A program made the translations under genes and the position numbers. A stretch of DNA of 64,000 nt from Bdellovibrio bacteriovorus W. Its GTDB lineage: Bacteria; Bdellovibrionota; Bdellovibrionia; Bdellovibrionales; Bdellovibrionaceae. Of this stretch, positions 48,996-62,900 are shown piece by piece. The notes under the pieces were generated by a model. It worked only from the letters and a program-made list of their open reading frames with translations, had not been told where the DNA came from and made no database searches. Every line of letters starts with the position of its first letter. The stretch's first letter is position 1. The stretch spans positions 992,001 to 1,056,000 of the forward strand of contig CP002190.1 of NCBI GenBank assembly GCA_000525675.1. Direction: 5' to 3'.

Positions 48996-49649
48996 CTATT
49001 TAACTTCGGCCAGTGAGTTGTAGTTATCACTGAGTTTTTCTTGTCTTTCGACTTCTTTTGACCAGCGATTGACTTCACCTTGGTAGCCGCGTTGTTTTGA
49101 CTTCCATTCGTTTTCTTCGCTAGCCAGTGTGCGCAATTTGCCATTCACTTGATCGCTTTGCTCTTTCAAGCTTTGACCGCGTGAAGACCAAATCTTTTTC
49201 TCTTCCTGAACTTGAGAAAGTTGCAATTGGTAGTCGGCAATATTTGTTTCGCGTTGTTTTTGGTTTTCTTTAATGCGCGCAATCATAGCTTCTAGTTCTT
49301 GAATGCGTTGATCTTCTTGTGCGTTTTTATTCTTCTCTTCGTTGATCAACTGCTGAATTTCTTTTTCTTTAGCAGCTACTTGATTGAGAGAGTGATTGTT
49401 CTCTTCAATCTGTTGACTGACTTGTTTTTGTTGGCTTTCAACCTGAGATTTTGCCTTGTTGACTTCATTCAGATTGCCAGTAACCACCTTCAGATTTTTT
49501 TGATACTCACTAAGATTGGTCTTAGAGTTGTTAACGTTAGACTTGATACGATCAAGGCCTTCTTTGGCAGAGTTCTGCGCCAATGACGGTGCTGACCATG
49601 AAAGAACCATTCCTGCTGCTAGTAGAATCATCTGTGTATTGAGTTTCAT
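48996..49649 (-). CDS. Periplasmic coiled-coil protein, last gene of the gliding-type operon
   Basis: 217 residues. Signal peptide MKLNTQMILLAAGMVLSWSAPSLA, then one nearly continuous coiled coil, rich in Gln, Glu, Lys and Asn (residues about 30-200). No named domain. AAGGAAC precedes the ATG. The gap to the TPR gene is 33 nt on the same strand, and the terminator after it ends the run of genes. In this context it is a candidate structural spacer in the envelope complex. Confidence 0.75.
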   Translation of the reverse strand: MKLNTQMILLAAGMVLSWSAPSLAQNSAKEGLDRIKSNVNNSKTNLSEYQKNLKVVTGNLNEVNKAKSQVESQQKQVSQQIEENNHSLNQVAAKEKEIQQLINEEKNKNAQEDQRIQELEAMIARIKENQKQRETNIADYQLQLSQVQEEKKIWSSRGQSLKEQSDQVNGKLRTLASEENEWKSKQRGYQGEVNRWSKEVERQEKLSDNYNSLAEVK

Positions 49650-49682
49650 AAAATCGTTCCTTTTAAATTATATCTAAATTAG

Positions 49683-51797
49683 TTATTCAGCTAAGCCCGC
49701 AATGTTTTCTTGGGCGCACACGTTCTTCAACGACGAGCGATAGTGACCCACTTCGTCTTCCCAAATTTCACCTTTAAATTTCCAGTTCAAGCTTTTGCCT
49801 TTTTGAACTTTCAGTTCAGGGCGCTCTTGGCTGTTGATATCGCCTCCGGCCATTTGATAGCGGATGTGTTCACCAGCTCCTGCATAAAGTTCGTATTGAA
49901 GAACTTCGTTCTGATCGAGAACTTTATTAAGGTTCGCGACCATATCATCGAAGCGATTTTTAAGAGCGTGGGATGCTTGGGCTCTTAAAACTTCTTTTTC
50001 TTTATCAATACGGGCAATACCTTTTGCGCGCAGGTCTTTAATGGACAGACGGGCCTTCTTAGCAATGTGATGCTGGATTCGGTAACTCATCAGCTTTTTT
50101 TCTGCAGACTGGATGCTTTCAACAACGGCTGGGGACGGGGAGTCGCCTTTAAGTTGTTGACGAGCTTTTGCAAGCTCCGTGTTCGCTGCATTTTGCTTCG
50201 TGATGAGTTCACGCTCTAAACGGATCAGAGTCAGCGCAATGCGATTGAACTTAGCGATTTCATCTTCGTAGTTGTTAATTTGTTTCTGCACACTCATGTA
50301 AGCTGGGTGGCGAGCCAGTTCCACGATAAAGGATCTAGGAAGACCATCCACTTCTTTGAGGTCGGAATTTTTCAACCATGCCTTGACCGTATCATAATAG
50401 TTAAGATTCGAAGATTTTGCCTTCTGGTATTGCTCCAGCTTTTGCTTCCATGGAGCATACTTCTTTGTCATTTCATTCAGTACTTGCACACCGTCACCGT
50501 ATTGGCACAGGTTCAAGTAACCAACGGTTCTGACAACGTAAGACTCTGGTGAAAAGGCATTTTTAAAAAAGTCTGTGTGAAGGGAGAACATGTTTCCTGC
50601 AGCTCCTTCGTAGTCTTCACTAAGAACTTGCGCCCATGCGCTTTCAACCATTGCCTGCAACCATAGAGGGTTCGACTTATCGACCTTTAGGTAGGACTGA
50701 AAGGCGTCTTTATAAGCACTCTTTTGAAACTGAATGCGTGCTAAAGTTAATGCGCCCACAGAGCGCAATTCTGCACTCTTTTCACCATCTGTCGACTTGA
50801 GCAGGCGATCTAACTGATAAGCAGCATCATCAAGTTTACCTTGGCGATAGTTAAATAGAGCCATTAACAATAAAGCTTCAGGATAGCGCGGAGACTTCTC
50901 TGAAATATAAACCAGGGCATTTTCCATAAGGCCCAGTTCACCTTTTTCAGAATAGTGCTTTGCGCGTGTGATTTGATAGTCGTCATTGCGAGTAATATCA
51001 ATGTCGTATTTCTCTACAAGAGGATCAATCAAGGCAACGTCTGAGTTCTCCAGAATATTGATGTTGTTCACCAGCGCAATGGTAGCTTTTTTCTGCCACT
51101 CTTTGTCTTTGGATTCGCGCACAACTTCAATCATGTTTTGGCGGAACTCCGAGTTCAGTCCTAAGCCTTTAGCTGTCATTGCGTAGTGATAGAGAGACTC
51201 GAGGCGATGCTCTGGTGTCTCAATCAATTCTGCAAACAATCCCATGGCTAGCTCGTAGCTCTTTTGAATCTCTAAAAAGATCAAAGCTTGGAGAAGCTTA
51301 TAGTCATTCGGCTTCATCTCATCCATTTGTGCGAGCTGCACAGCGGGATTCTGCGTCGTTGGATCTGCCACCGGCGCTAAGACTTTGATGTCAGGAATCT
51401 TTTGAAAAGCATCGGCACTTGTCACTGGTTTTGCTGTGCCGACTTTCTCGTTATATGGATTCAATTGAAGTTGTAAAACAGGAGGGGAGGCGTGCTTGCG
51501 CACATCTCTTAAAGAGAGTTCTCTTGAGGCAGGCATGCGCATGGGCGCAAGGTCCGCCGCTGAGACTTCTCTTTCAGATCCTAGATCAAGAACAGGAATG
51601 TTCTTAACTTTGTAAACTTCAACTTTTCCGTTAACAGTTTTCTTTTGATAAATATTAAAAGTCGGAACCGCACTGGTTTTCATCTGAAGAGATGAATCCG
51701 CAGGGCGACCTTTTGACTTTAAAACTAAAGGCCCCTCTGCAAAGGCAGAACCTGTGCAGAGAAGACTAGATAGAAGAATCAAATTTAAATTTTTCAT
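49683..51797 (-). CDS. Large periplasmic/outer-membrane TPR protein
   Basis: 704 residues from MKNLNLILLSSLLCTGSAFA, a signal peptide. From about residue 160 onward TPR-type helix pairs are visible (SLYHYAMTAKGLGLNSEFR, EALLLMALFNYRQGKLDDAAYQL, AELRSVGALTLARIQFQKSAY). A charged coiled-coil region (about 510-620) and a short end domain follow. Its role in the operon is inferred as scaffold, comparable to the TPR proteins of the myxobacterial Glt envelope complex. Start is ATG with GGGGG six bases upstream, favoured over an in-frame GTG at 51809. Confidence 0.8.
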   Translation of the reverse strand: MKNLNLILLSSLLCTGSAFAEGPLVLKSKGRPADSSLQMKTSAVPTFNIYQKKTVNGKVEVYKVKNIPVLDLGSEREVSAADLAPMRMPASRELSLRDVRKHASPPVLQLQLNPYNEKVGTAKPVTSADAFQKIPDIKVLAPVADPTTQNPAVQLAQMDEMKPNDYKLLQALIFLEIQKSYELAMGLFAELIETPEHRLESLYHYAMTAKGLGLNSEFRQNMIEVVRESKDKEWQKKATIALVNNINILENSDVALIDPLVEKYDIDITRNDDYQITRAKHYSEKGELGLMENALVYISEKSPRYPEALLLMALFNYRQGKLDDAAYQLDRLLKSTDGEKSAELRSVGALTLARIQFQKSAYKDAFQSYLKVDKSNPLWLQAMVESAWAQVLSEDYEGAAGNMFSLHTDFFKNAFSPESYVVRTVGYLNLCQYGDGVQVLNEMTKKYAPWKQKLEQYQKAKSSNLNYYDTVKAWLKNSDLKEVDGLPRSFIVELARHPAYMSVQKQINNYEDEIAKFNRIALTLIRLERELITKQNAANTELAKARQQLKGDSPSPAVVESIQSAEKKLMSYRIQHHIAKKARLSIKDLRAKGIARIDKEKEVLRAQASHALKNRFDDMVANLNKVLDQNEVLQYELYAGAGEHIRYQMAGGDINSQERPELKVQKGKSLNWKFKGEIWEDEVGHYRSSLKNVCAQENIAGLAE

Positions 51798-51819
51798 TAA
51801 AACCCCCACCCCTTGGAGA

Positions 51820-52584
51820 TTAGTGCCAGTAAGTAATTCCGATCATTAGAGAAGTGTCGTTGACATTCTCGGAGCCGAGATCGCGGTCCCCAGGTCCTGT
51901 TGTACCGCCAGGAATCGGAGTATTCGGCGCATAGAAACGCATTTTCTTTTGATCAGACCACGTGTTTACTAGATCTGCTCGAATTGCAAAATGCTCTGAG
52001 AAGAAGATTTGCTGGAAGATACCGAGGCGATAGGCCATTGTGTTCTCTGTAAGATTTCCTTCTTTTTGTGCGATCTCATATTCAAGATTTCCAATCCCGA
52101 AAGAAAGACCCATGTCGAAATAGATAATGGCTTTATCTACAACGCTCATCTTTGCGTAAAAAGGAACCCAAGTTCCTGAAAGGAAGTAATTTGCCTTAAG
52201 GACGTTATGATTCGGCATTACACCGTAAGTGCTCTCAAACTGAGAGACCGCGTCGTTGCGCTTTAAATCATAAGATTGATAGCTTGCTTCAAGGCCCCAG
52301 CGTTCATTGAAAAAGTATCCTAAGCTTGCGCCCACAATACTGCCTTCACTATAGGGATCGTTGAAGGGAATACCCGCAGCCGCTGATAGGTAAAAGCGAT
52401 CTGCCTTTACGTATCGACGATTTTGCACGACGCTGAAATCGTCATCTTTTGCGGCCCAATATTTTTGCTCAAGTTTTTTAATGTCCAGCTTGTCAGAATC
52501 TCTTGCTGCTGGCTTGTTGTCTGCTTGTTGTGCAAACGCTTGAGCTGTCATCATGATGAATACTAATAGTGTCTTTTTAAACAT
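51820..52584 (-). CDS. Outer membrane beta-barrel protein of the Glt-like cluster
   Basis: 254 residues with signal peptide MFKKTLLVFIMMTAQAFA. A short helical section (about 25-60) is followed by an eight-strand-type barrel (FYLSAAAGIPFNDP, IVGASLGYFFNERWGLEASYQ, FYAKMSVVDKAIIYFDMGLSFGI) ending SLMIGITYWH with a terminal aromatic. The pattern matches the outer membrane beta-barrel family common in Myxococcota/Bdellovibrionota motility clusters (GltA/GltB-like). It would be the outer-membrane end of the machine. GGGG site upstream. Confidence 0.8.
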   Translation of the reverse strand: MFKKTLLVFIMMTAQAFAQQADNKPAARDSDKLDIKKLEQKYWAAKDDDFSVVQNRRYVKADRFYLSAAAGIPFNDPYSEGSIVGASLGYFFNERWGLEASYQSYDLKRNDAVSQFESTYGVMPNHNVLKANYFLSGTWVPFYAKMSVVDKAIIYFDMGLSFGIGNLEYEIAQKEGNLTENTMAYRLGIFQQIFFSEHFAIRADLVNTWSDQKKMRFYAPNTPIPGGTTGPGDRDLGSENVNDTSLMIGITYWH

Positions 52585-52599
52585 TTTCTTTACCCCGCC

Positions 52600-54075
52600 T
52601 TAGTTTGTACTCTTGAATAAGAATGGATATGTCACAAGCACTCGAGTTCCACCTTGTGGTTGTGGAAACTTCCATGCAGCAACCCTATTCAATATACATC
52701 CCTCAACGGTTGCGTTCTTTAGTGTAGTGTCCCCAATAAGCTGCTGTTCTACTGAACCCGATGGTCCAATGGTGAACTTCACGGCGACTTTCCCGAATAG
52801 ATCAGGACTCGCGCTAAGCTGTCTTTCATAACAGTATAGGATTTGACCTAACTGAGATTTGATATACTGAGCAATAATTTCGCGATCTAAACCTCCTACG
52901 ATTTCACTTTCATCTTCAATCAAACCAACACCCGCTGAACCTGTGCTACCTGCAGCAAGTCCCCCCATGCCGGAAGCGTTCTTTCCACCACCACGGCCCG
53001 CAGTAGAAATCACAACTCCCTGACCCGAACCTTCAGAGCTCCAGTCTCGACCTGATTTCTCCATGCTGCCGACAGCTGCAAGGGCACGACCTGAAGCAGC
53101 ACCCGAACCAGCCTTAACACCTTGAGCGATAACAACGTTTCCGCTCTTAGCAGCTTGTGCTGAAACTTTTCCGATCAAAGTAGAAATACGACCGGCTGCC
53201 GCAGAGTTAAGCATTTTTGAAACTTTACTCTGAGAGCCATTGTTTTCTGCAACCTTAGTTGGAGCAGGGGCAGGAGCTTCTTTAACTACCACTTGTTTTT
53301 GTGGAGCCTCTGCTTTTTTACGCTTAGGTTTAAGTTCGGTTTTAACCACAATTTTTTGTGCAATCTTTGGCGGAGGAGCTGCTACAGTTTCTAAGCTCTG
53401 ATTTTTCGGAGCAAAGATGCCTACAGTCAGCAAGAAGAAGGCAAAACCTAAAACTACGTAAAGACCTTTTTTAGAGTCTTCATCGATCAACTGATCAGCA
53501 GTGATAGATCCTAACTTCTGAGCATCTTCCAAAGAAATTGTTCTTTGGCGGATTTTGATTTCTCCGACATTTTGGTAAGTCCATTGATCAGAGGCTTGGC
53601 AAGCCACACTGATCGGTGGGACAAACTCAGAGAGCACGAGTTTTTTATTAATCGGCAAAACTTTCGTGGTAAGGACTTTACCAGCTTGTTCAACGATATA
53701 AAGTTGGAAGCTTTTTCCACCCTTAAGATCTCGTTGAGCGTTGCCAATTTGTTCAAGTTTTAAATAAAGATCTTGTTCTTTTCTAACCGGAGTAAACTCC
53801 AGGCTGCAATCATCAAGATCTACGGACTTTTGCGAATCCAAGCAAAGAGCAGGGGATTGAGCTCCAGTCGCACTCTTCTTGGGATCCATGTCGATATACC
53901 ACCAGTTACCGTTACGGAACTCAAAGAGACCTTGAATTCCATGTGTGTCTGGTGAAATAGAGATGACATCAGCAAGTCTTGAGGACCCGAAGGTGTGAGT
54001 CGTATTCGCAGAGTGCAGTTTCCAAGTTTTCACTGCACCGTTTTTTAGAGATTGGCGTACAATTAACGTGAGCAT
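52600..54075 (-). CDS. FHA-like/single-TM/TonB-like protein (AgmX/PglI C-terminal domain)
   Basis: 491 residues. Residues 1-95 resemble an FHA domain (THTFGSSRLADVIS, then HGIQGLFEFRNGNWWYID), which binds phosphothreonine in the cytosol. One membrane helix at 204-222 (LYVVLGFAFFLLTVGIF) is followed by a Lys/Pro/Ala-rich periplasmic linker and a Gly/Ala/Ser region. The C-terminal domain (about 395-491: GQILYCYERQLSASP, GKVAVKFTIGPSGSV, WKFPQPQGGT) is the AgmX/PglI type, related to TonB. In Myxococcus GltG and GltJ have this plan and connect the inner-membrane motor to the outer membrane. GAGGTG before the ATG. Confidence 0.85.
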   Translation of the reverse strand: MLTLIVRQSLKNGAVKTWKLHSANTTHTFGSSRLADVISISPDTHGIQGLFEFRNGNWWYIDMDPKKSATGAQSPALCLDSQKSVDLDDCSLEFTPVRKEQDLYLKLEQIGNAQRDLKGGKSFQLYIVEQAGKVLTTKVLPINKKLVLSEFVPPISVACQASDQWTYQNVGEIKIRQRTISLEDAQKLGSITADQLIDEDSKKGLYVVLGFAFFLLTVGIFAPKNQSLETVAAPPPKIAQKIVVKTELKPKRKKAEAPQKQVVVKEAPAPAPTKVAENNGSQSKVSKMLNSAAAGRISTLIGKVSAQAAKSGNVVIAQGVKAGSGAASGRALAAVGSMEKSGRDWSSEGSGQGVVISTAGRGGGKNASGMGGLAAGSTGSAGVGLIEDESEIVGGLDREIIAQYIKSQLGQILYCYERQLSASPDLFGKVAVKFTIGPSGSVEQQLIGDTTLKNATVEGCILNRVAAWKFPQPQGGTRVLVTYPFLFKSTN

Positions 54076-54108
54076 GTTAACACCTCAAAAAATATAAATA
54101 ATCAGAAA

Positions 54109-54357
54109 TTAATTATTTAAATATAGGGCCGATTCGCGAATTCTAGAATCCATGTCCTTTTGTACATCGTACAAAGGCATGAACTTGATACCTTTCTTTT
54201 GCACAAGATAGGCACCATCTGGGTTCCGAATTGTTCCCTTGAGATTCATCTCACCGAAATTGACTTCTTGAACTTTACGAACTGTGCGAGATTTCGCTTG
54301 CGCAGCTGTTGTTCCCAAGAGACAGAAAGCTATCATCGCTGTGATGATTGTTTTCAC
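54109..54357 (-). CDS. Small periplasmic protein of the Glt-like cluster
   Basis: 82 residues, GTG start behind GGAGG. Signal peptide MKTIITAMIAFCLLGTTAAQA, then about 60 polar residues including VQEVNFGEMNLKGTIRNPDG, a charged sequence reminiscent of the short conserved segment found next to TonB-like Agm proteins. No name assigned. It sits between the 1236-residue TPR gene (14 nt) and the FHA/TonB-like gene (33 nt). Confidence 0.72.
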   Translation of the reverse strand: MKTIITAMIAFCLLGTTAAQAKSRTVRKVQEVNFGEMNLKGTIRNPDGAYLVQKKGIKFMPLYDVQKDMDSRIRESALYLNN

Positions 54358-54371
54358 TTGTATCCTCCATA

Positions 54372-57300
54372 CTACAAGTCTCCCGAGATAACGTGCTGAC
54401 CGACTTTGTTTTGTGTTTTCAAATACTGTATTTTTTTACTTAACCAATCACGCAGTTCCGTCTGCCGAGAAGATTTCAAAGCCTTCTCATAAGAGTCTAA
54501 CGCTAGCGTTGGACTGCTTTTGTAGGTCTCAAATAAGTGAGCCTGCTGTAGTAGAAAATCGGCATTTTCTCTGCGAACATTAAGTAAATCTTTGATCAAA
54601 CTTAATGATTTTTCTACATCACCACGCATGGCGTGCGCTTCACTTAAAAGAATTCCTACATTCAAATTATACAATTGATCTTTGTTAAGAGAAGATAAAT
54701 TTAAAATCGACTTATTATAATCTCCCTCTGAGAAAGCCTTCACTCCAACAAATGTTTTCAATTCTGTCGAAGACATTTGCATATCAACAACCTTATCGAA
54801 GAACGGCATCGCTGAAGTTATCCCATCTTGTTTATAAAGTAGACGGGCCTTCTGGTAAACATAAGGAGAAGCTTCTGGCTGTAGCTTTAAAGCGGATTCA
54901 ATCATCCATAAAGATTTATCATCAAAGCCCTTGGCTTCTGAAGCAACGCTCACATAGAACAATCCTAGGGCGCGTGTATCTTTATTTTTTGCTGCTTCAA
55001 GTCCCAGTCTTTCGAGTAAATCAAACTGTCTAAAAGAATAACAGTTTCCTGCAACTTCCGCTAGTTGTGCAGAAGTGATCTTGCCACCCATGATCAGAGT
55101 ACGATCACAAGATTTCGCATTTTTACCGGCAAACTGAGACACTTTGCCAATCTCCATCGTCAAGCTTCCAGGAAGGAAAGCGGTCATTTTATCCGGAGAC
55201 GGGTACTGGACCAAAGGCTCGATAGTTTGATCAGCACGGATGCTCGCATAAGAGCGCTCTGTAGAGACAGATTGTCCCTTTGAAGCCGCAAGAACTTTGA
55301 GTTTGGCTTCGTTCTCATTTTTCTTTTCTTGAATCGGCGCAATGAGTTTAGCAATCTCTCCGCGAAGCATGGTTTGTTCTTCGGCGTTCAAACTTGCCGG
55401 AAGAGGCATTGATTGCAAGCTCTCTACAAAGTTTCCGTAACAGCGATCAATTCCACGCATCGCCTCTAGCTGCTGGTAGGGATCGTTACTCATCTTCAAA
55501 GTTGAGAAGTAAGCCGTGTGAGCCTTATCTAACTTCTCGGTCTTCATAGCTAGCACCATAGCGAACTTGTCTTCGCGAGCCTTCACACTTTGTTGCACAA
55601 GCTCTTTCTCTAATATACGGGCTTGGATCAAGCGGGCTTCGGCACGAGTTTCCGCAGGGACACTGCGACCATTGGCTTTAAGAGCTAAATCAAAGGCTGC
55701 TGAAAGTTTGCCAGCATCTAAAAGTGCTTTGGCTCTTTGGATCATGATCTGAGTTGTATAAGGCTCGATCCCTTTGGCAAGAATCTGATTCTGGAGTTTT
55801 TCCAGATCTCCAGCTTTAGCGTCTTGCTTATAAGAGTCCATCAGCTTGCCATAGATTCTTTCAAGAGTCTTTGAGTCGGCTGCATTCAAGATTCCGTTAT
55901 ACGCAGAGCGAGCCTCTTTGTATTTCTTTTCAAGGATGTAAATATCTGCCGCAAGCTCTAGGTGAGAGTTGCGATTTTTAGAATCCTTTTCAGCAATCTT
56001 TGTCAAAGTCTCGGCAGCTTTAGAAATCTGACCGACTTCGGCATAGGCCTTGGCCGCTTCCTTCAAAGCATCCAAGTTGCGTTTGTCAGAAGGATATTTT
56101 TCAACGAACTGAATTGATTGTTCAGCACCATCGAAGATCTTTCCTTCGGCATAAAGCATACTGAGAGCCTGCCATAGAGCATCTTGAGAAAGTTTTGAGT
56201 CTTGATGCTCTTTCGCAAAAGCTAAGAGTTTTTCAGAAGCCTTATCTTTGTCTCCCGTTTTTACGAACTCTTGAATCTCAGTGAAGTGAGCTTCTTCTAA
56301 GATCTTATTCATGCTCGTTTTACGAGTGGTATCCGTAGTATTGGCAAGTACTCCCTTAGAGAAGTCTTTAATACCCGCATAGTCTTTGCGGATGTTGAGG
56401 ATATCAAGAATTAAGTCCTCGGATTTTTTTCTAGTTTCTTCGTTTTCTTTTCCTTTTAAAGAAGCCAGTGGGCGTAACCATTTTTCAGCGTCTTCGTAAT
56501 TTGTCTCTTCGTAGGCAATATGACCCAACTTGAACTTTACTTGCGTTGCATAAGATCCAGTTGGATGTTTTGTTAAATAGTTTGTAGCTAGGTCTTTACG
56601 CTCAGCTTCTTTAAGAGTTGATTTCTTTTTATCAATACTTTTTTCTTTAGAGTATAGAGCGGCGTAATTGGCATCATGGCGCATTTTATCTTCTGTGCTC
56701 TTATCACCAACCATGCGGTACTGGGTACTGGCTTCATCATACTTTTCCAACTGGAAAAGAAGTTCAGCATATGCAAAGCGGCTCTTAAGATCTGGATTTG
56801 CTGGATCTTCATTATCTAAAATCAATTTAAAGAGTCTTTGAGTGAGCTCAGAGAATTCTGTGTTTTGTTTGTTCTTAAGCCAGATCTCCCACCATTTTTT
56901 GGCGATATCAAGGCTTGTAGAGCGCAGCTCTTTGTCACAGATAGCAGAAGCATCTTCAGGCTGTTGAGCGGTTCTCCAAGCAGAATCGCGGCGGCAAAGG
57001 TCGCTGGCGATTTGGAAATGTTTAATAACGTCGTTTCTCTTTTTAAGAGTTTCATTGGCATCAACAAGCATGATGTGAGACTTCACAATCATACTTCCTG
57101 ATGGGCGCTTAGACGCATATTCATCTAAAAATATATTCATTTCTTTTTGACGGCTATGAGATTCATAGAGTTTAGCTAGATCAATCATAGCCTGACCCAT
57201 CTCTTCGTCAGTTGTGATGTCGTCAAAGAATGAGTAAAGTTTGCTTGCTGGGTAGGTGTCGCCAATAAAAATAGTCAGGTCGCGCAGTGCCTCACGACGG

Positions 57301-58082
57301 AGATTGTGGCGGTTTGTCGGAGCCTCACCCGCTTGAAGTGGTGGATTCTTCTTAACAACATCCACGAGTTTTTGAATGCCGCGCTCACTTTCTCCAAGGT
57401 TATAGTAAGACCAAGCAGCTTTGTACATGCCGTAAGAATAGACACGAGATTGTGGATACTTTTCGATGGCCAAAAAATGCTCAAGAGCATCTTTGAAACG
57501 AGTTTGGTCGTAGAGAAGTTCCCCCACCGCTAGCATACCGTCCGTGACTAGTGGAGACTTTGGAAATTTTGAAAGTAAGCGCAGGTAAAGAACTTCAGAT
57601 TGTTTAAGCTGGCCGATCTGTTGATTGGCGAAAGCATTGTTAAATAGAACAGAGTCCATTTGATTGAACTTCGGGAACTCTATTTCAATCTTAGTATAAA
57701 TTTTGACGGCCCTTTTAACGGCCTCAGATCCTTTTTCGTTAGGAATTGGAAACGGAGAAAGTTTTAAAAGGGGAGTGTCCTGGTGAAGATCGAAGAAACG
57801 ACCTGATTTCGAACGGCGCATATACATTTCTGCCAGACGATACCAAAGGTCTGCTTCTTCAGGAGCTCCCTTTTTTCTTTTAATGATAGCTTGCAGTGAT
57901 TCGATCGCTCTGTTTTCAGAGCGGGTGATCATCACTTCACTTGAAAGTGCTTTTTTCTCGTTGTCTTGCTCGCTGTTGTTCATACGAACTTCAGGAAGAA
58001 GGCCTTTTGTATCTTTCTTCTGAGCAAAAACAGCAATTGAAAACAGATGAAATGCAAGAAGCAATACCACTGCGCGTAACAT
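54372..58082 (-). CDS. 1236-residue periplasmic TPR protein (GltD/AgmU-like)
   Basis: Signal peptide MLRAVVLLLAFHLFSIAVFA, then TPR-type repeats along almost the whole length: for example AEMYMRRSKSGRFFD, SVLFNNAFANQQIGQLKQSE, GMYKAAWSYYNLGESERGIQ, AYAELLFQLEKYDEASTQYR, ALKEAAKAYAEVGQISKAAE. Size, position next to the motor genes and TPR make-up match GltD (AgmU), a periplasmic scaffold of the Myxococcus gliding complex. The ATG at 58082 has GGAG 8 nt upstream; an earlier Met adds five residues and overlaps the TolR-like stop. An intermediate region (about 930-960) with TERSYASIRADQT breaks the repeats. Confidence 0.85.
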   Translation of the reverse strand: MLRAVVLLLAFHLFSIAVFAQKKDTKGLLPEVRMNNSEQDNEKKALSSEVMITRSENRAIESLQAIIKRKKGAPEEADLWYRLAEMYMRRSKSGRFFDLHQDTPLLKLSPFPIPNEKGSEAVKRAVKIYTKIEIEFPKFNQMDSVLFNNAFANQQIGQLKQSEVLYLRLLSKFPKSPLVTDGMLAVGELLYDQTRFKDALEHFLAIEKYPQSRVYSYGMYKAAWSYYNLGESERGIQKLVDVVKKNPPLQAGEAPTNRHNLRREALRDLTIFIGDTYPASKLYSFFDDITTDEEMGQAMIDLAKLYESHSRQKEMNIFLDEYASKRPSGSMIVKSHIMLVDANETLKKRNDVIKHFQIASDLCRRDSAWRTAQQPEDASAICDKELRSTSLDIAKKWWEIWLKNKQNTEFSELTQRLFKLILDNEDPANPDLKSRFAYAELLFQLEKYDEASTQYRMVGDKSTEDKMRHDANYAALYSKEKSIDKKKSTLKEAERKDLATNYLTKHPTGSYATQVKFKLGHIAYEETNYEDAEKWLRPLASLKGKENEETRKKSEDLILDILNIRKDYAGIKDFSKGVLANTTDTTRKTSMNKILEEAHFTEIQEFVKTGDKDKASEKLLAFAKEHQDSKLSQDALWQALSMLYAEGKIFDGAEQSIQFVEKYPSDKRNLDALKEAAKAYAEVGQISKAAETLTKIAEKDSKNRNSHLELAADIYILEKKYKEARSAYNGILNAADSKTLERIYGKLMDSYKQDAKAGDLEKLQNQILAKGIEPYTTQIMIQRAKALLDAGKLSAAFDLALKANGRSVPAETRAEARLIQARILEKELVQQSVKAREDKFAMVLAMKTEKLDKAHTAYFSTLKMSNDPYQQLEAMRGIDRCYGNFVESLQSMPLPASLNAEEQTMLRGEIAKLIAPIQEKKNENEAKLKVLAASKGQSVSTERSYASIRADQTIEPLVQYPSPDKMTAFLPGSLTMEIGKVSQFAGKNAKSCDRTLIMGGKITSAQLAEVAGNCYSFRQFDLLERLGLEAAKNKDTRALGLFYVSVASEAKGFDDKSLWMIESALKLQPEASPYVYQKARLLYKQDGITSAMPFFDKVVDMQMSSTELKTFVGVKAFSEGDYNKSILNLSSLNKDQLYNLNVGILLSEAHAMRGDVEKSLSLIKDLLNVRRENADFLLQQAHLFETYKSSPTLALDSYEKALKSSRQTELRDWLSKKIQYLKTQNKVGQHVISGDL

Positions 58083-58086
58083 AGCT

Positions 58087-58584
58087 TTATTCTCCAACCA
58101 TGGTGACTAACTTAAGCTGAGGGAAACCGGCCATAGAGGCAGTGTACATAACTTTTCTTAAAGTACCGTAGGGAAGGTTTCTATCAGCTTGTAAAAGAAT
58201 TTTTCCGTCTTTTACATGAGGCTTGTCGGCCTCGCTTTTGGCGATTTTATCAAGCTGTTCAAAAAGAGGCTTGATAAAGTTTGTATCTTTATCCTCAAGA
58301 TCACTTGCCATGAAATCTGCATTTTTTAAGTCAGCGACTTTCTCTTTATCAATCTTCAAGGCATTCGCTGTAAGCGATAATTTGATCGCTTCTGTCGGAT
58401 TAGAAAAAGATGAAGAAGCCGGAAGGCGTAAACCATCTTCTAACTCGATTTGTACCTCTGCTGTCGAATACGACTGAAGAAGGAATACGAGAAGGATGGT
58501 AAACATATCCGTCATCGACGTGATATTGAGGGTAAATGTTGAATTTTGCTTAATAGGAGGTTCGTAACGACGTCTTTTTGACAT
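58087..58584 (-). CDS. TolR/ExbD-like proton-channel subunit with conserved Asp
   Basis: 165 residues. Short basic N-terminus, one membrane helix (about 20-40: ITSMTDMFTILLVFLLQ) with the conserved Asp that carries protons in TolR/ExbD/MotB, then a periplasmic domain rich in charged residues, ending in the ExbD-like segment ILLQADRNLPYGTLRKVMYTASMAGFPQLKLV. It partners the TolQ-like protein encoded upstream, as AglQ or AglS does with AglR in Myxococcus. It lies 4 nt from the second TolR-like gene. Confidence 0.88.
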   Translation of the reverse strand: MSKRRRYEPPIKQNSTFTLNITSMTDMFTILLVFLLQSYSTAEVQIELEDGLRLPASSSFSNPTEAIKLSLTANALKIDKEKVADLKNADFMASDLEDKDTNFIKPLFEQLDKIAKSEADKPHVKDGKILLQADRNLPYGTLRKVMYTASMAGFPQLKLVTMVGE

Positions 58585-58588
58585 GATC

Positions 58589-59134
58589 TTAGCCCTCCAT
58601 CATGTTGGCAAAAACAACTTCTGGAAACATATAATGTGTTTCCACGTTCTTACCTTGTTTAGTATCAAAGACAGGGAATGTTGTCTTGTTGTCCATCGTC
58701 TGGCGAGCGTTATCCATGACCTTAACGACATCGTCGTATGGTACGCGACCATCAGGATTCACTTCGATCTTAAAAACTTCTGGATTGGCTTTTTTGACAG
58801 CAACAAGTTTTTGATGAAGAGTCTCGTAGTCGAAAGCTCCTTCTTTAAGCGGAATCTTTTCAACTTCGTCTTTACCTTTTTTAGTAACAACGATGTTGAT
58901 ACCGTCTTTGCTATCCATTTCGACGGCCACGTTGGTTGGGGTCTCTTGTTGCTCTTGGCGCTGAATGGCTTCACTGACGACTTGGGGAAGCTCAGTTTCA
59001 ATAACCATCATTTGCACGAAGGCAGATGAAAGTAAAAGTACTGGAACGAGTTTCACCATGACGGCAAGTAGGGGAGCTAAATCGAGCTCGAACTCACCAC
59101 TGCTGTTGACTTTAATTTTCTTAAGCTTTCTCAT
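58589..59134 (-). CDS. TolR/ExbD-like subunit lacking the channel aspartate
   Basis: 181 residues of the same plan as its neighbour: one membrane helix (about 18-42: LAPLLAVMVKLVPVLLLSSAF) and a periplasmic ExbD-like domain ending GRVPYDDVVKVMDNARQ. Aligned to E. coli TolR (INIVPLLDVLL), the invariant channel Asp is replaced by Ala (LDLAPLLAVMV) and a Lys appears three residues on. In Myxococcus both AglQ and AglS retain the Asp. This subunit is thus likely structural, with its partner supplying the only proton-carrying site. 45 nt downstream of the TolQ-like gene. Confidence 0.85.
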   Translation of the reverse strand: MRKLKKIKVNSSGEFELDLAPLLAVMVKLVPVLLLSSAFVQMMVIETELPQVVSEAIQRQEQQETPTNVAVEMDSKDGINIVVTKKGKDEVEKIPLKEGAFDYETLHQKLVAVKKANPEVFKIEVNPDGRVPYDDVVKVMDNARQTMDNKTTFPVFDTKQGKNVETHYMFPEVVFANMMEG

Positions 59135-59179
59135 TTCCCACTCCTAAAATAAAATCGTACCTAGTCAAAGAGCTTCCAA

Positions 59180-59890
59180 TTAGGAAGCTTTTGAACTTGA
59201 AGATGGAGGAGTCGCTGTTGGCGCCGTTACGTGATCAGGGAAAACGTTTTGGCGAGACAGAGTAGGGATATGAGCACTTGTTAATAGTTCTGCAAGTTTA
59301 GAGCACTTCTCTGAAGTCTGTTCTACAAGCTGATTTTGACGAGCTGTTAAGAATGAGAAGAACACCATCGCAGGAATTGCAACTGCTAGACCCAATGCTG
59401 TCGTATACATCGAAACCGAGATACCATGGGCTAGAAGGGCTTGCTTCTGAGCTGGATCGGCTGCTGCTACCGCTTGGAACGATAGAATTAGACCGTGAAT
59501 GGTACCAAGTAGACCCAATAGAGTCGCAACGTTGGAAAGCATTGATAGATAGTGCAGACGTTTAGTGTAAAGTGGAATGTTCTCACTCAACGCAATGTCG
59601 TGTGCTTGGAAGATAGTATCGTCATCGCGATCTGCTTTTTCCAAAATTGTTTTAAAAGCACTTGCAAGAGGCTTCTTATCAAGCTGTGCACACAATAAAA
59701 GAGCTTCATCCATTTTTTTAGCAAGAACAAGATTTTGTACTTTCGCCATGAATTCATCGACATTCATGCCGTAGTCTTTATAAAGAACTTTAGCGCGTTC
59801 TGCGATCAGGACGACGGCACCCATACCGACTAGTAGAATAAACCAGCCGACGATACCAGAATCGTGCATAAATTTAAGAAATGCTGTCAT
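59180..59890 (-). CDS. TolQ/ExbB/MotA-like motor subunit (AglR-like)
   Basis: 236 residues. Three membrane helices: about 12-30 (GWFILLVGMGAVVLIAE), about 132-152 (LSMLSNVATLLGLLGTIHGLILSFQ) and about 175-195 (TTALGLAVAIPAMVFFSFL). The G-L-L-G-T-I-x-G motif of helix 2 and the helix 3 sequence are diagnostic of the TolQ/ExbB/MotA family, the stator that converts proton flow into motion. A strong AAGGAGG precedes the ATG, which falls inside the last codons of the GYF-PilZ gene (17-nt overlap). The Ser/Pro-rich C-terminus is non-conserved. Confidence 0.92.
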   Translation of the reverse strand: MTAFLKFMHDSGIVGWFILLVGMGAVVLIAERAKVLYKDYGMNVDEFMAKVQNLVLAKKMDEALLLCAQLDKKPLASAFKTILEKADRDDDTIFQAHDIALSENIPLYTKRLHYLSMLSNVATLLGLLGTIHGLILSFQAVAAADPAQKQALLAHGISVSMYTTALGLAVAIPAMVFFSFLTARQNQLVEQTSEKCSKLAELLTSAHIPTLSRQNVFPDHVTAPTATPPSSSSKAS

Positions 59891-60485
59891 TTGTTTCCTC
59901 CTTGGAAGCGCCACCGCGTGTCCATTTTGTTAATTGAGTCATTCCCTGATCTTGCACGTTGAGGAAACGTACGGCGTAATGCAGACCGGATTTTACGTTC
60001 AAGCGCTGTTTTGAAAAGTTCTTACGAACGATTTCGCAGAGCGCGTTGAAAGGTTTTGCGTTCACGTCAGAACCTCTGAAGTGAATTAAAATTTGTTGTC
60101 CTAATTGAAGCAATGGATCGTTTAGAAGAACCAAAGCTCCATTTTCGCTGACACTCAGTGTTTGCCCGTCAAAAAAGTTGTGATCATTGTGAGCATAAAT
60201 GGGAGTGACTAGATCAACTCTTGGAAATTTTCTTTCTTTGAAAGCGCCGGAGATATGATCCTTTGTTTCAATCAAACGGCACAATCTGTCTTTGGAAAAT
60301 TCTTGTAGGTCGCCCAATAGAGTCCAATTTTCAAGGTGAGCTGCCCAGATATAATTATAATCAAAGAGCTCACCATTTTGAATCATAGTAATCAGTGAAC
60401 GGTATTCATAAGGTCCGTACTTCATCTCTCCACGGAGGATGTACCACTGAGCTGCGTTTATAGATGATTGATGTGCGCCGTTCAT
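59874..60485 (-). CDS. GYF-domain plus PilZ-domain protein
   Basis: 203 residues. Residues about 12-58 form a GYF_2/DUF4339-like domain (WYILRGEMKYGPYEYRSL, then NGELFDYNYIWAAHLENWTLLGDL), a proline-peptide-binding fold. Residues about 80-190 form a PilZ domain (RKFPRVDLVTPIY, then LSVSENGALVLL). The second motif keeps S-x-x-G; the first is R-x-x-R-like. No signal or membrane segment, so cytosolic. It overlaps the TolQ-like gene by 17 nt, so its dose is tied to the motor. GltJ in Myxococcus also has a GYF domain that acts as a polarity switch. Here GYF is joined to a c-di-GMP sensor, a plausible on/off input to the motor. Confidence 0.82.
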   Translation of the reverse strand: MNGAHQSSINAAQWYILRGEMKYGPYEYRSLITMIQNGELFDYNYIWAAHLENWTLLGDLQEFSKDRLCRLIETKDHISGAFKERKFPRVDLVTPIYAHNDHNFFDGQTLSVSENGALVLLNDPLLQLGQQILIHFRGSDVNAKPFNALCEIVRKNFSKQRLNVKSGLHYAVRFLNVQDQGMTQLTKWTRGGASKEETNDSIS

Positions 60486-60497
60486 TTTCTTTAATCC

Positions 60498-61547
60498 TTA
60501 AAGTTTGATAGATTTAGGGTAAAAATCGATCTGGATATTCGCATCAGCACTTGGGATAGCGTCGCCGTGGAAATGAATCGTCAAGTCAGCAGCATTATAA
60601 GTCCAACCGTTAACTAATGATTTCGGAACTACCACGCCATTTACTTTCACAGTGATCGTGCTTTCAACGGGTTCGCGTTGAAGTTGGAAAACTGCTGATA
60701 GTTGAATGATAGAGTCAGAAATCAATTCTAAGCTTTGACCGAAGTTAGAGCATAGAGAAGCTTTCACTCCACCAGTAAGAGTCGCAAGTTCGCCAACACG
60801 ATTACCAGCTTGTGCAGCCGAGTGAAGTGTACAGCCTGGGTTCGTGCGAGTAGGAACATAAATAGCGCTTACAGAGTAGTTCTTCATAGTATCTGTCGAC
60901 TGAGTATAATCGCGAAGGAATGTTACGTAGTCTTGAACAGGGTGAAGACCTGGATTGGAAGGGTTATCCATACTACCTGAAGATCTTGAGTAATCTTCTT
61001 CATCCGTAACGATGATAACTGCTAAGAAAGCATCGTCGCGACGGAAGTTATGTTGATTATTGATAGAGCTTTCAAGTGTAGCACGGAAGCTGTGAAAAGC
61101 GCGCTCGTCACCACTTCCATTGATCCCTTGCTTTACTGCGGCACCGAATACTCCACCAAGATTTGATGTGTACTTGTCCATTACGTAAACTCCAAGACCT
61201 GGTCTAAATTCAGCTTTTTGAGTTAGGCCCATACCAAACTCTGAGTTTGGAGCCGCTTGCCAAGCTTCAGTCGTAGTGACCGCCATATGGAAATCAAAAT
61301 TTGAAGTTTCAAAGCGTTGTATAAAAGATTGGAAGTTATCAGCAAGGTCTTGTTGGTACGGGGCCATAGACCCAGAGTTGTCGATCACCCAAAGAACGTC
61401 GATCTTCTTCGGGATGAGAATCGCCTGCTGTTGGTAGTCGGCGGCGTCGCTCAACAGGGAATATGAACTGCTACTCTTGCTGCAACCTGCGAGGAACGAC
61501 ACTGCGGCTGCCATCAACACTGCTTTTCTTGCAATTAGATTTACCAT
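60498..61547 (-). CDS. von Willebrand A-domain lipoprotein
   Basis: 349 residues from MVNLIARKAVLMAAAVSFLA, where AGGAGGGC sits 9 nt upstream. Lipobox LAGC. A vWA domain follows at about 48-260, with the metal-binding DNSGS (DxSxS) near residue 57 and VTDEEDYSR near 190. The C-terminal part is beta-rich (ESTITVKVNGVVVP). vWA domains mediate metal-dependent protein contacts. First gene of the motor operon, 12 nt upstream of the GYF-PilZ gene, so it may act at the surface or in the periplasm as part of the complex or as an adhesion factor. Confidence 0.85.
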   Translation of the reverse strand: MVNLIARKAVLMAAAVSFLAGCSKSSSSYSLLSDAADYQQQAILIPKKIDVLWVIDNSGSMAPYQQDLADNFQSFIQRFETSNFDFHMAVTTTEAWQAAPNSEFGMGLTQKAEFRPGLGVYVMDKYTSNLGGVFGAAVKQGINGSGDERAFHSFRATLESSINNQHNFRRDDAFLAVIIVTDEEDYSRSSGSMDNPSNPGLHPVQDYVTFLRDYTQSTDTMKNYSVSAIYVPTRTNPGCTLHSAAQAGNRVGELATLTGGVKASLCSNFGQSLELISDSIIQLSAVFQLQREPVESTITVKVNGVVVPKSLVNGWTYNAADLTIHFHGDAIPSADANIQIDFYPKSIKL

Positions 61548-61882: not shown

Positions 61883-62407
61883 TCACCGAAGGGTGTTCCA
61901 GAATTTTTTTATATTTTGCTGATCTGCCTCTGTAGCTTTCTTAGAGAGGCGAAAAACAAGTGCTATGGGTTTCATGCGGATAAAGCCTACAACGACGTGT
62001 CTCTCGGGGTAGAGAGCGTCTTTGTCGATGTCGTTGAGCTGTGCTTGGCAAGTCTTGCCAGTATGTCCAGTAAAGAGAGTGGCGCCTTGAAAACTTAATG
62101 TCCCGCTTTTTAGATCTCCGAAGATGCTCTCTAAGATCGCTTCACATGTTTTCTTATTCATTGCTGTTTCAGAAACTGCATGAGGTGTATAGAGATCTAC
62201 GCGGCGAAGATCTTTGGAGGATTCATTGGAGCGATTAAGGTATCCGACAAAATCTTTACCCTTGGCAAAGTCTAAAAAGGGGCTCTCGCTTGCAGAAACG
62301 AATTCAATCTCTTCTTTTGATTTTATGGGAGCTTCTACTTTCTTATTTTTAGCTAAAGAAGGTGATGAAAAGAGAGTCAGTAAAATCAAGAGTGTGGTTT
62401 GATACAT
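61883..62407 (-). CDS. Small secreted protein, unknown function
   Basis: 174 residues from MYQTTLLILLTLFSSPSLAK, a signal peptide; longer in-frame readings run antisense-like into the upstream gene and were discarded. Two Cys (KKTCEAI and GKTCQAQ) could pair. No family recognised. The start lies 4 nt from the stop of the preceding gene on the same strand. Confidence 0.72.
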   Translation of the reverse strand: MYQTTLLILLTLFSSPSLAKNKKVEAPIKSKEEIEFVSASESPFLDFAKGKDFVGYLNRSNESSKDLRRVDLYTPHAVSETAMNKKTCEAILESIFGDLKSGTLSFQGATLFTGHTGKTCQAQLNDIDKDALYPERHVVVGFIRMKPIALVFRLSKKATEADQQNIKKFWNTLR

Positions 62408-62411
62408 AGAA

Positions 62412-62900
62412 TTACCTAGTCCCTTCGCTGCCTTTGTCGGTAGAGACGTTGATTTTACCATTGCTAGCTTTGCGAACCTTCTCCACGATATTGGCGAACT
62501 GCCGATCCGTAGATTGCTTAAATTTAAACCCCTTGATCTCAATGGCTTTATCAACACCGACTTTACCTTCGTAGGTTTTGCCATTATCGAGAGTGACTTT
62601 GAGAATCATATTTTCGTAGCAAGCAGACTTGATGTAACCGTCATCGGCATAGATGTCGCCGGGCTGCCAGACGTAGCCTTCGAGCTTAAGTTTGTCGCCC
62701 ACAGGGCGGATCTTTAAACCTGCGGTTAAGAAAAAGCTATCGACCGTTAGTAGAGTCGGAAGCTCTTGTAAAATTGCAGGAAGGTTGTCTTTTTGTTTTT
62801 GATGTTCAGAGACCGACGAAACGCAGATAGGTTCAGCCCAAGCCGTAGTCGTTGAAGCTAAAATAAAGAGAGCAAAAACTGCGTGTTTTACGAAAAACAT
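62412..62900 (-). CDS. Secreted protein, unknown function
   Basis: 162 residues with a signal peptide (MFFVKHAVFALFILASTTTAWA) behind GGAGG. Body beta-rich (LKLEGYVWQPGDIYADDGYIKS, MILKVTLDNGKTYEGKVGVD) with Cys at ICVSS and SACYE. No family recognised. Two-gene unit with the next small secreted protein. Confidence 0.75.
   Translation of the reverse strand: MFFVKHAVFALFILASTTTAWAEPICVSSVSEHQKQKDNLPAILQELPTLLTVDSFFLTAGLKIRPVGDKLKLEGYVWQPGDIYADDGYIKSACYENMILKVTLDNGKTYEGKVGVDKAIEIKGFKFKQSTDRQFANIVEKVRKASNGKINVSTDKGSEGTR

Follow-up and report, generated by a model that had tools for sequence, protein, structure and literature searches.

A probable proton-driven Agl/Glt-type envelope motor with unlike TolR subunits in Bdellovibrio bacteriovorus W

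Four agl/tonB-like operons have been published for Bdellovibrio bacteriovorus HD100, namely, Bd0411/0412-0421, Bd0828-0838, Bd1473-1483, and Bd2368-2377 (PMC2797640, PMC12546842). Early in predation, it is Bd0411-0421 that is induced, and Bd2368-2377 has been linked in print to prey exit. The lipoprotein Bd1483 and the PilZ protein Bd1482 have already been described (PMC2277423, PMC11003981, PMC3271064), the latter having been named by Hobley et al. (2012) as a candidate receiver for DgcA. A 2026 review (PMC13104615) still treats the gliding machinery of Bdellovibrio as unidentified. Models of MotB, ExbD, and TolR have in common that the proton channel switches back and forth between two essential Asp residues (PMC12215075), and whether Myxococcus AglQ and AglS make heterodimers or homodimers is not known (PMC9389320). 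Here we analyze an operon carried by a 64,000-nucleotide stretch of B. bacteriovorus W DNA (the window; contig CP002190.1, positions 992,001 to 1,056,000), in which 11 minus-strand genes extend from position 61547 down to 48996 with intergenic gaps of -17 to +45 bp. The eleven tightly spaced same-strand genes described in an earlier note on this DNA were thus recovered, the count being 11 once an exported protein of 82 amino acids (aa; 54109-54357) is included.

We propose that the product of this operon is probably an envelope motor of the Agl/Glt core-complex type, driven by protons and most likely moving a surface adhesin in gliding, with an asymmetric axle and a PilZ input resembling YcgR/MotI. 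The parts, their fold classes, their co-inheritance, and the changes at particular sites were demonstrated by sequence comparison. From the head of the operon downward, the genes are the following.

60498 to 61547, minus strand: vWA/MIDAS surface lipoprotein, 349 aa, with lipobox LAGC and MIDAS motif DNSGS; Bd1483 ortholog, the 'type A' adhesin.
59874 to 60485, minus strand: GYF-PilZ cytosolic protein, 203 aa (Pfam PilZ, 5.8e-13; GYF_2, 2.8e-8); Bd1482 ortholog.
59180 to 59890, minus strand: TolQ/AglR-type proton-channel subunit, 236 aa (Pfam MotA_ExbB, 3.2e-25); Bd1481 ortholog.
58589 to 59134, minus strand: TolR1 (AglQ position), 181 aa (Pfam ExbD, 4.2e-21), with Ala24 in place of the transmembrane Asp, Asp18 six residues before it, and Lys28 in the transmembrane segment; Bd1480 ortholog.
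58087 to 58584, minus strand: TolR2 (AglS position), 165 aa (Pfam ExbD, 4.1e-16), with transmembrane Asp26 kept; Bd1479 ortholog.
54372 to 58082, minus strand: exported tetratricopeptide repeat (TPR) scaffold, 1236 aa, a fusion of a GltD-like protein (~1-925) and a ~300-aa TPR gene in the GltE position (~1005-1226).
54109 to 54357, minus strand: exported 82-aa protein in the GltF position, with a GTG start and 70 to 92% identity within the genus.
52600 to 54075, minus strand: GltG-type linker, 491 aa (NCBIfam GltG, 1.2e-43), with an AgmX/PglI tail (myxo_SS_tail, 6.9e-31).
51820 to 52584, minus strand: outer-membrane beta-barrel, 254 aa (NCBIfam OMP_myx_plus, 1.5e-23).
49683 to 51794, minus strand: GltC-type exported TPR protein, 703 aa (NCBIfam GltC, 1.8e-30).
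48996 to 49649, minus strand: exported coiled-coil protein, 217 aa, present in this operon across the order.

AglR-, AglQ-, and AglS-type proteins are encoded together, as judged by Pfam and by BLAST against the TolQRR loci of Myxococcus xanthus, and GltC, GltD, GltE, and GltG types occur in the same locus, GltE being assigned by position only and in fused form; this is the composition of the Agl/Glt core complex (Group B of Luciano et al. 2011). The Pfam scan also matched TPRs in proteins of the operon. The M. xanthus genome was reached through the PDB sequence of the GltJ GYF domain, and its motor and Glt loci were then compared. One of these loci contains TolQ and TolR open reading frames (ORFs) of 245 and 162 aa, which are the published lengths of AglR and AglQ. 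The GltD-like TPR protein matched an M. xanthus TPR protein of a paralogous cluster (E = 7e-36), and the 82-aa protein matched an M. xanthus ORF adjoining gltG (E = 3e-5). No myxobacterial counterpart of the coiled-coil protein was found among the compared loci; among 11 operon regions of other families, 9 have its gene in this position. The vWA protein matched the NCBIfam MIDAS family adhesin model (MIDASAdhsBdello, 1.5e-14, a score under the curated cutoff for Bd0875 itself) and CglD (5e-11). Since the GltG, GltC, MIDAS, and CglD scores all fall under the NCBIfam curated equivalog cutoffs, these matches indicate homology and not equivalog status. For the GltG-type protein, AlphaFold2 (AF2) and Foldseek predicted an FHA fold, a second beta domain, a transmembrane helix (199-221), a disordered stretch (226-392), and a TonB-like C-terminal domain. 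The FHA domain of the window protein is below Pfam detection; because 12 of 33 orthologs match FHA and the predicted N-terminal fold agrees with solved FHA domains in Foldseek, we consider the assignment settled.

When the three motor proteins were placed in a tree (RQS tree), AglRQS grouped with Bd0828-0838 (support 83.5/84), as it did in Luciano et al. 2011 (PMC3169522). A 99.8/100 branch set these apart from the window operon together with its relatives in the order and a further M. xanthus motor. The window operon was therefore rejected as an AglRQS ortholog, although it would work as an Agl/Glt machine does. The second M. xanthus TolQ-TolR-TolR set, which grouped with the window operon and not with AglRQS, encodes proteins of 260, 186, and 193 aa (L144, C323:3050-4958). 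The myxobacterial gliding-complex parts list of the earlier note held insofar as homology extends beyond TolQR (to GltC, GltG, the GltD-like TPR protein, the GltF-like protein, and the CglD/MIDAS-like vWA protein), but the operon is not the closest relative of AglRQS. The window machine shares with Myxococcus AglRQS-Glt a TolQ and two TolRs, GltG, GltC, a GltF-like protein, a GltD-like TPR protein, and an outer-membrane barrel, and the D-E-F-G gene order of Myxococcus is also kept in Bdellovibrionales operons outside the family designated f1 below. It differs in being encoded by one operon instead of three clusters, in its built-in MIDAS lipoprotein and GYF-PilZ protein, and in its TolR1, which lacks the Asp kept by both M. 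xanthus TolRs. Bd0828-0838 and its copy in the window genome at 569 to 583 kb are core complexes of the same kind, but they group with AglRQS and keep the Asp in both TolRs; the GltC of this copy gave the best NCBIfam GltC match (3.4e-55).

All 11 window genes were found in the same order and on the same strand, with 56 to 89% identity, at 1.392 to 1.405 Mb of a 3,782,950-bp comparison genome (G006), which we take to be that of B. bacteriovorus HD100, a strain that shares its genus with the window DNA but belongs to another species. TolQ-type motor genes occur in that genome at 0.40, 0.79, 1.40, and 2.28 Mb, positions that fit, in turn, Bd0411-0421, Bd0828-0838, Bd1473-1483, and Bd2368-2377, and the published gene numbers fit the order found (Bd1480, aglQ; Bd1481, aglR; Bd1482, PilZ; Bd1483, MIDAS lipoprotein). 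Since synteny, motor positions, and gene numbers agree, the window operon is, on gene content and order, the ortholog of Bd1473-Bd1483, with which it shares an Asp-less TolR1 and from which it shows no architectural difference. Chance is excluded because all 11 genes have the same order across the genus. The window genome (~3.0 Mb) has three such motor operons, of the window, Bd0411 (L065), and Bd0828 (L066) types, versus four in HD100; the Bd2368-2377 type was not found in it by a TolQ search (L065, L066, L152). This kind of operon is already known, also in the sister species. Three features described below are unreported as far as we found and could not have been seen by the earlier note, namely, asymmetry of the axle, exchange of the head adhesin, and fusion of two TPR genes.

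Published mutants and expression data on Bd1473-1483 support the role in surface movement suggested by the earlier note. Mutants with a transposon in Bd1481 or Bd1483 are less able to prey on biofilms but still form halos on prey lawns (PMC2277423). Expression of bd1480 is induced on surfaces and lowered in the absence of Bd0367, a cyclase needed for gliding (PMC9140294). Could the machine instead serve attachment or biofilm growth by transporting or rotating a surface adhesin or polymer, as does Nfs for the Myxococcus spore coat, without being a gliding engine? In M. xanthus, sporulation makes use of paralogous sets of the Agl/Glt type (PMC3858216), three HD100 operons including Bd1473-1483 are up in host-independent growth (PMC2797640), and the RQS tree joins the window operon to the second M. 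xanthus motor and not to AglRQS. The biofilm-predation phenotype is compatible with polymer or adhesin transport as well as with gliding, but the surface induction and Bd0367 dependence of bd1480 speak for the latter, and we regard a transport machine as possible but on the unlikely side.

The putative input of the motor is the GYF-PilZ protein. Its AF2 model (predicted local distance difference test score of 84.8) gave the PilZ domains of MotI and YcgR as best Foldseek matches and also matched the GltJ GYF domain (7z3c). The flagellar-stator regulators YcgR and MotI (DgrA) have this PilZ fold and a gene located beside a MotA/TolQ-type channel, as in the window. The window protein differs from YcgR in having a GYF domain in place of the N-terminal domain proper to YcgR and in its second cyclic di-GMP (c-di-GMP) motif: RxxxR is kept, but SxSxxG replaces D/NxSxxG, the first residue being Ser in the genus and mostly Glu in relatives. 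By analogy, we infer that the window PilZ protein acts on TolQ as YcgR and MotI do on stators.

According to the gliding motor model, proton flow through TolQ would turn or tilt a TolR1-TolR2 heterodimer, and GltG would pass the force to a periplasmic scaffold of GltD(E)-, GltF-, and GltC-like proteins and to the barrel. The vWA lipoprotein would grip the surface. The GYF-PilZ protein would read c-di-GMP or cyclic GMP-AMP (cGAMP) and engage the motor as a brake of the YcgR/MotI kind does, or as the GYF domain does in Myxococcus GltJ. Several points weigh against this model. For the window species, the evidence consists of sequence comparisons, and it is likewise from sequence that formation of the TolR1-TolR2 heterodimer is inferred. 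Among the Bdellovibrio operons, the one closest to the Myxococcus gliding motor is Bd0828-0838, so gliding could depend chiefly on it. The published Bd1481 and Bd1483 mutants are transposon insertions and possibly polar (PMC2277423). GltI, GltJ, and GltK were reported to be absent from Bdellovibrio (Luciano et al.; PMC3169522), the only GltJ likeness found here, where no genome-wide search for the three was made, being the GYF domain of the window PilZ protein. Finally, the noncanonical SxSxxG motif makes nucleotide binding, that of c-di-GMP included, uncertain.

An alignment search with TolR1 revealed the operon motor in most of 141 Bdellovibrionales genomes, with ~115 matches at 2e-30 or better and a gap below. 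Gene order was read in 112 operon regions, 60 of which are from family f1 (20 genera read). The order in f1 is vWA, GYF-PilZ, and TolQ onward in 51 of 60 regions, most others being cut by a contig or locus end. Outside f1, the usual order is GYF-PilZ, (vWA), TolQ, TolR1, TolR2, a GltD-like protein of ~1000 aa, a ~300-aa TPR protein, a small protein, GltG, barrel, GltC, and coiled coil, some operons being rearranged or split.

The two TolR subunits differ at the site of the canonical proton-binding residue. Proteins of the TolR type have a single mid-membrane Asp. TolR2 has it (Asp26), and TolR1 has Ala24 at this site, with an Asp six residues closer to the cytoplasmic end. Both TolR1 codons are located as follows.

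59063 to 59065, minus strand: TolR1 codon 24, Ala, at the site of the canonical proton-binding Asp.
59081 to 59083, minus strand: TolR1 codon 18, Asp, where relatives with the transmembrane Asp kept have Asn or Ser.

Across the 112 operons, the TolR1 transmembrane site is Asp in 28, Ala in 76, Ser in 7, and Gly in 1, and the TolR2 Asp is present in 110 of 110. In f1, all 60 TolR1 sequences lack the transmembrane Asp and have Lys four residues downstream. The site at -6 is Asp in all 84 TolR1 sequences without the transmembrane Asp and Asn or Ser in all 28 that keep it, a reciprocal pattern holding in 112 of 112. Misalignment was rejected, as the alignment is gap-free around the site. Loss of the Asp is derived and arose within the order, since all 22 of the listed TolR1 sequences from outside the order keep it; the other three HD100 motor operons keep both TolR Asp residues. 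Parsimony on a rooted TolQ plus TolR2 tree gave four changes; because deep support is low (29 to 43), only at least two separate switches are claimed, which likely occurred in f1 (100/100) and in one genome inside a 100/100 Asp-keeping clade. Decay of TolR1 was rejected, the ratio of nonsynonymous to synonymous polymorphism (pN/pS) being 0.197 versus 0.183 for TolR2 and 22 DNA versions of the TolR1 transmembrane segment encoding one peptide; by these measures, TolR1 is under purifying selection. In TolQ, channel Thr130 is invariant (112/112), and the residue two positions after it is His in 51 of 60 f1 sequences and mostly Val or Ile in the Asp-keeping group, a difference that kinship may explain in part. 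We found no report of a TolR or AglQ protein lacking this Asp in the open-licence literature.

The asymmetry would mean that the two TolRs are not interchangeable and that each axle has one canonical proton site. We give an even chance to the proposal that most Bdellovibrionales have one 5:2-type motor with an asymmetric heterodimeric axle, in which the only canonical Asp is on TolR2 and the TolR1 acid lies six positions toward the cytoplasm. Alternatively, a TolR2 homodimer with two Asp residues could be the real axle, TolR1 being a nonmotor partner (a plug, peptidoglycan anchor, or regulator) in some TolQ rings. This would fit the conservation of Asp by TolR2 alone in every genome, and self- versus cross-pairing of AglQ and AglS is not known in Myxococcus (PMC9389320). 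We nonetheless consider it unlikely, since TolR1 retains the whole ExbD domain and an invariant transmembrane segment, the reciprocal gain of Asp at -6 points to a TolR1 still in the proton path, and TolQ residues beside the channel Thr covary, although relatedness alone may account for part of the latter.

The vWA lipoprotein is present in every congener with a recovered operon head (48 to 60% identity), and 50 of 54 operon vWA orthologs have a DxSxS-type motif; a PDB sequence search with the window protein gave no match. In a vWA tree, the f1 operon adhesin (18 genus members) grouped with vWA genes that are freestanding in families other than f1 (98/93). The adhesins that those other families encode in the operon grouped instead with an orphan PilZ-vWA pair of the genus Bdellovibrio (100/99). 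These groupings indicate that in f1 an adhesin of a different vWA clade replaced the one at the operon head and that the PilZ-vWA pair so displaced persists as an orphan in the genus Bdellovibrio. A PilZ tree favored neither the operon PilZ nor the orphan one as the closer relative of the PilZ of other families. An orphan GYF-PilZ plus vWA pair with no adjoining motor genes occurs in the window genome (G000:C1:2395723-2397261; L069:7715-9499) and in the HD100 genome (L153:5909-7749); it is of the Bd3099 type by position and looks like the displaced head of the window operon. The head genes were rejected as a local novelty. The earlier note had taken the added vWA and GYF-PilZ genes to suggest a modified machine; they are found through most of the family, and Bd1483 and Bd1482 are published.

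The 2,657,893-bp genome G055 is presumably that of B. exovorus, an epibiotic predator that feeds from outside. It lacks TolR1 and GltG orthologs, a single case, and nearly all sequenced relatives in its genus carry the operon. The prey-entry role also offered by the earlier note, in which the vWA lipoprotein would grip prey and the motor pull the cell in, is improbable: the absence of the operon from this genome and the membership of the invasion adhesin Bd0875 in the vWA family would favor it, but deletion of bd1483 gives no empty bdelloplasts, expression of Bd1476-1481 falls on the shift to predation and prey entry, the operon induced early in predation is Bd0411-0421 and not Bd1473-1483, and insertions in Bd1481 and Bd1483 still give lawn halos.

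Two adjacent genes of other families align to the two parts of the 1236-aa TPR scaffold, and nearly all complete cases in f1 have a fused TPR protein of ~1200 to 1280 aa. Long TPR proteins of 1231 and 1270 aa are also encoded by two genomes of family f4 (L289 in G021 and L268 in G125), which suggests, from protein length, that the fusion happened again outside f1. Upstream of the operon (window positions 61883-62900), two same-strand ORFs of 233 and 162 aa lie in different frames with a 173-bp overlap.

If the asymmetric heterodimeric axle is real, the two-Asp alternating cycle would not be universal, and AglQ/AglS-type pairs would be obligate heterodimers. The Asp-less axle protein, shared by a whole family of bacteria, and the coupled change six residues away form a natural test of both questions, which can be approached by point mutation in the tractable strain HD100. 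For the gliding machinery of Bdellovibrio, the operons are ranked here and specific residues are singled out.

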